This document shows, piece after piece, positions 46,273 to 46,575 of a stretch of 64,000 nucleotides of DNA (position 1 is its first letter; each line of letters starts with the position of its first letter). Source of the DNA: an uncultured Gammaproteobacteria bacterium (GTDB taxonomy: Bacteria; Pseudomonadota; Gammaproteobacteria; HK1); NCBI GenBank assembly GCA_958295465.1, contig OY282353.1:1302001-1366000 (forward strand). The letters are read 5' to 3'. The translations under genes and the position numbers were made by a program. The notes below the pieces were generated by a model. That model saw only the letters and a list, made by a program, of their open reading frames with translations. It was not told the DNA's origin and did no database searches.

Positions 46273-46575
46273 TCACTCCGCCTCCCGCGCGGGCCGGCAG
46301 CAGGCAATCCGGCAGCGTTCGGACTCGGGAACTTCAAGACCGCTACCGGCCACGATCTCGCCGTTGGCCAGGCCCCGCAGCTCGCCCGGTTCGGGAAACC
46401 GCCCGAGCGCCTTCTTGGAAAATACGAGGCGATTGTCCACCGTGACCTCGAACACGCCGCCGCTCGACTTCACGAGCGCCACGTCGGCGCCGAACTCCGC
46501 CGTCAACTCGTCTCTCGCGCCCACGGCGCGAGGCTCGTAGCCTCAAGCTCCGCAGTATTCGATTCGTATCCGCAT
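46273..46575 (-). CDS. SelW-like (Rdx family) selenoprotein with in-frame UGA
   Basis: Read from ATG 46575 with the TGA at 46543-46545 as selenocysteine, the 100-residue product starts MRIRIEYCGAUGYEPRAV and continues ELTAEFGADVALVKSSGGVF, EVTVDNRLVFSKKALGRFPE. The Cys-Gly-Ala-Sec motif, the following GY and the FEVTV...FSKK..G.FPE block are exactly those of selenoprotein W. Similarity continues in the same frame on both sides of the TGA, which is hard to explain for a true stop. A strong hairpin follows the TGA at the spacing seen for bacterial SECIS elements. Reading only the part after the TGA gives a truncated protein without the redox motif. Likely role is thiol redox control. Confidence 0.85.
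46514..46532 (-). promoter_or_regulatory. Bacterial SECIS-like hairpin
   Basis: On the minus strand CTCGCGCC-GTG-GGCGCGAG forms a perfect eight-base-pair stem with a G-containing loop. It begins 10 nt after the UGA of the SelW-like gene, close to the 11-nt spacing of the apical SECIS hairpin in E. coli fdhF. This is where the elongation factor SelB would bind. Confidence 0.7.

Follow-up and report, generated by a model that had tools for sequence, protein, structure and literature searches.

The window, by which we mean the whole 64,000-nucleotide stretch of DNA analysed here, very probably carries a functional gene for a SelW-like selenoprotein of the Rdx family, in which comparative evidence leads us to predict with high confidence that a single in-frame UGA is decoded as selenocysteine. 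The minus-strand frame from 46575 to 46273 runs from an ATG to a TGA and is interrupted once, by the TGA at 46545-46543; reading that codon as U gives a product of 100 amino acids beginning MRIRIE. The features of the locus are as follows.

46273..46575, minus strand: SelW-like gene, 100 codons plus a TGA stop, with a CxxU motif and an Rdx domain at residues 2-67 (translation and profile matches).
46543..46545, minus strand: in-frame UGA, predicted selenocysteine codon (residue 11), with a TGA at the same column in the family copies and the best 80 homologues.
46514..46532, minus strand: predicted bacterial SECIS hairpin, CUCGCGCC-GUG-GGCGCGAG, 8 bp, with its loop 17-18 nt after the UGA.
46273..46524, minus strand: 83-aa open reading frame starting with GTG, the expected product of a standard gene caller (mechanical open reading frame list).
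46273..46368, minus strand: C-terminal tail beyond the Rdx domain, ending in SERCRIACCRPAREAE, Cys-containing and poorly conserved.

A sequence-only reading of this DNA had proposed that translation through the TGA yields the selenoprotein W signature YCGAUGYEPRA and that the frame then continues with the blocks FEVTV, FSKK and GRFPE; the latter are present exactly as claimed, and the signature, with CGAU at residues 8-11 of the read-through protein, is borne out both by translation and by profile matches to Rdx and SelT/W/H models. In profile searches the whole read-through protein reached 72.4 bits against PF10262 (Rdx; cut-off 22.6), 90.2 bits against NF041051 (cut-off 88) and 58.3 bits, again over the cut-off, against TIGR02174, the last two being NCBIfam SelT/W/H models, and the family profile matches mouse selenoprotein W (PDB 2npb) with an E value of 6e-8. 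The part after the UGA alone scores 42.7 bits against the Pfam Rdx model, and it is the ten upstream codons that contribute the redox motif. The homology of the read-through product is thus beyond chance, and a thioredoxin-like fold would be expected by analogy with homologues of known structure, among them 2npb and 2fa8. As the same reading anticipated, standard calling would return a truncated product: for this frame the mechanical list shows nothing but the 83-aa piece at 46524-46273 and a piece ending at the UGA. Support for the start codon comes from two relatives (L024, L025), where an in-frame TGA lies three codons upstream of the homologous ATG.

A coding role of the UGA is supported by its retention among relatives. 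Of 55 genomes compared, which share the genus, family or class of the window's genome, nine have SelW copies with a TGA, all nine belonging to the same family. The TGA stands at the same column in 10 of 10 copies, namely the window gene, the second copy of its genome (L002) and a single copy from each of the eight relatives; decayed or frameshifted copies, which the sequence-only reading had named as a refutation, were absent among these relatives, whose copies are intact. A selB over the curated cut-off accompanies all nine genomes with a Sec-type SelW and 1 of the 46 others, counts that ignore shared ancestry, and homologues in selB-less genomes carry Cys at the column (CxQC, CxDC), one of them without the first Cys. 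That other genome (G042, selB at C1:247316-249190), the only one searched beyond the family in which selB exceeds the cut-off, has no SelW match. A wider scan, of one genome per species, yielded 246 relatives, and a TGA occupied the Sec position in all of the best 80, a uniformity due in part to only the best matches having been taken; these 80 include Pseudomonadota, Thermodesulfobacteriota, Gemmatimonadota, Acidobacteriota, Verrucomicrobiota, Bacillota and others. A tree built from this short alignment, with many forks open, places the window gene and the second copy both within the Pseudomonadota set (95/97 support), apart from the Cys forms.

The window belongs to a single-contig genome of 5.68 Mb in which the complete selenocysteine machinery is present, so that the absence of selB and selC, which the sequence-only reading had named as fatal to its own proposal, is refuted. 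The relevant genes of this genome are listed below.

C1:184722-186062: selA, adjoining selB; selA, selB and selC lie in a row.
C1:186098-188221: selB, between selA and selC.
C1:188267: selC, the tRNA-Sec with anticodon UCA, 46 bases beyond the end of the selB match.
C1:1640262: selD, apart from selA-selB-selC.
C1:5052830-5053036: second SelW copy (L002), with a TGA in the CxxU position.
C1:4966768-4967136, plus strand: peroxiredoxin of BCP/Prx type (L126), with an in-frame TGA in TPGUT (locus position 1618).
C1:2609137-2609577, plus strand: Prx-like protein (L128), with an in-frame TGA in FRGHWUPYC (locus position 1615).

These observations bear directly on two other explanations of the interrupted frame. 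The first, that an Rdx gene was broken by a nonsense mutation and no selenocysteine is inserted, is formally allowed by any in-frame stop, and the hairpin taken alone is compatible with chance; we nevertheless consider such a pseudogene very improbable, given that the same UGA recurs in all the copies from the nine genomes and in the best 80 homologues from many phyla, that the frame is intact on both sides of it, and that the genome holds every component needed for its decoding. Still less probable is an altered genetic code, with tryptophan or unspecific read-through at UGA, for which nothing speaks except the open frame: the column is Cys where selB is lacking, the genome has SelB and a tRNA-Sec with a UCA anticodon, and TGA terminates other genes of this genome and its relatives. 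The account we favour is decoding as selenocysteine, in which SelB and tRNA-Sec would read the UGA at 46545-46543 co-translationally, directed by the hairpin just downstream of it and inside the reading frame, and the resulting 100-aa protein would carry its N-terminal CGAU (CxxU) within a thioredoxin-like Rdx domain. Such a protein is most likely a thiol/selenol oxidoreductase with a mixed Cys-Sec redox centre; SelW-like proteins are viewed as a redox family, and a link to glutathione has been suggested (PMC1088965). Selenocysteine insertion, redox activity and a physiological partner are what we infer for the window protein.

Besides the two SelW copies, the peroxiredoxin and the Prx-like protein are likely the third and fourth selenoproteins of the genome, as predicted from their in-frame TGAs. 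In the Prx-like gene the loop of an 8-pair hairpin lies 19 nt downstream of the TGA, and a simple scan of the peroxiredoxin gene returned very short stems only and no clear SECIS hairpin. Formate dehydrogenase was considered as the main user of selenocysteine and rejected, the genome's Fdh-alpha copies having no in-frame stop, and no internal stop was found in its CMD/AhpD copies. Around the window gene lie genes for a molybdopterin-binding dehydrogenase, an SDR, an Iso_dh-family protein and an FMO-like protein; none is a conserved operon partner, as these neighbours do not stand beside SelW in the relatives (1.5-3 kb on each side). No sigma-70 promoter was found by a simple scan. A TATNCT-like hexamer recurs in several relatives some 30-45 nt before the SelW ATG (L001, L023-L030) and could be a -10 box.

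The window hairpin begins exactly 10 nt past the UGA and, taken alone, has a free energy of -15.1 kcal/mol. The closest relatives have a 5-nt loop (CGUGA or CGUGC) on a stem of 7-8 bp, which makes the innermost C-G pair peculiar to the window, and the stem and loop bases are the same in the four closest relatives except for the last loop base. Published limits for bacterial SECIS elements are a loop of 3-9 nt, a stem of 4-16 bp, a G in the first two loop positions, a spacing of 16-37 nt and a minimum free energy of at most -7.5 kcal/mol (PMC13188914), and the hairpin falls within all of them, with a loop of 3 or 5 nt starting GU or CGU, 18 or 17 nt from the UGA, on a stem of 8 or 7 bp. The geometry originally described, eight base pairs starting 10 nt after the UGA (46532-46514), therefore stands, but the weight placed on it as stand-alone evidence does not: 11-14% of synonymous recodings drawn from local codon usage match it (p 0.11-0.14), which rules out the single-sequence hairpin as evidence in itself. 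Equally strong hairpins occur at 8 of the 1329 TGAs within the window, and by itself the structure is unremarkable in such GC-rich DNA. We take the RNA evidence from the family.

Across the family, 54 of 83 sequences have a five-base N-GU-NN loop on at least 4 bp that starts at +21 nt from the UGA; the loop starts at +17 in the window gene and its four closest relatives, and at +18 in four Acetobacteraceae. In a set of 45 distinct +21 sequences, which excludes the window's own hairpin, 89.6% of cells form the six-pair stem and covariation reaches 0.556, against 0.170 (sd 0.023) in shuffled alignments and at most 0.145 when the stem is slid. The loop GU is invariant in 51 of 51 sequences, a count in which loop position is partly built in because the sequences were chosen for the +21 register, though the codon containing it is AGT, GGT or CGT (Ser, Gly or Arg), and this invariance is therefore hard to explain by protein selection. 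A family-wide SECIS is thus strongly supported by the aligned sequences. In the window's group covariation is not assessable because the stem hardly varies there. Among its amino-acid-conserved codons, all five genomes share the identical codon at 12 of 15 sites around the UGA versus 7 of 30 elsewhere in the gene (Fisher p 0.0004); in the group of the second copy no significant difference emerged from this test (p 0.36). No part of the gene is more constrained in the window's group than codons 5-22, and residues 1-17 are conserved like the rest of the protein, both of which make it extremely improbable that the protein begins after the UGA, at the GTG at 46524, and so lacks the redox motif, as the mechanical caller's output would have it.

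One genome has two SelW genes whose SECIS loops start at +17 (the window gene) and +21 (the second copy). We tentatively suggest that two SelW lineages with different loop positions may be served here by one SelB, that +17 could be a lineage-specific repositioning, and that the Cys-containing tail might provide an extra resolving thiol. Cys pairs (ACC, PCC, ECC) occur in the tails of some window-type SelW proteins (the window protein, L023 and L025), these tails being poorly alignable, and in L023 the tail is located behind a second in-frame TGA. A second selenocysteine at this tail TGA (genome G015) was rejected; we read the codon as a stop because visual inspection showed no GU-loop hairpin and the close relative L024 has a TGA at the equivalent place.

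The arrangement of the window gene resembles several known systems. In E. coli fdhF the SECIS hairpin likewise lies directly after the UGA, with a loop GU and a similar distance from UGA to loop; the encoded protein, however, is unrelated, and the stem sequence differs. Mammalian selenoprotein W (2npb) shares the Rdx family and the CxxU motif with the window protein, whereas its SECIS is of the eukaryotic kind, in the 3' UTR, rather than in the coding region beside the UGA. The NF041051 model, SelTWH_Campy, points by name to Campylobacter-type (seleno)proteins, yet the window protein, over its cut-off, is gammaproteobacterial and tailed. A further comparison is with the bacterial SelW-like selenoproteins (PF10262, CxxU), one of the most abundant selenoprotein families in marine bacteria, examples being 48 sequences from the Sargasso Sea and 427 from GOS (PMC1088965, PMC2398784). 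The window gene has in common with these an N-terminal CxxU, an Rdx domain, a UGA and a bacterial SECIS within the coding region, and differs from them in its lineage, in a SECIS loop 4 nt nearer the UGA than in most homologues sampled and in its Cys-containing C-terminal tail. Within the library searched, no paper linking Immundisolibacter with selenocysteine was found.

Because SelW-like proteins are among the commonest marine bacterial selenoproteins, we regard the window gene as an ordinary further member of a well-known bacterial family, and knowledge of SelW-like proteins is unchanged by it. It is slightly new in its lineage, in its SECIS register and in the presence of two SelW lineages in one genome. 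The analysis contributes a gene whose product standard annotation would cut short, and it records predicted selenocysteine use for one family of uncultured gammaproteobacteria; if the two-register reading is true, the SelW pair would offer a modest natural experiment on how far SelB tolerates differences in the spacing between UGA and loop.
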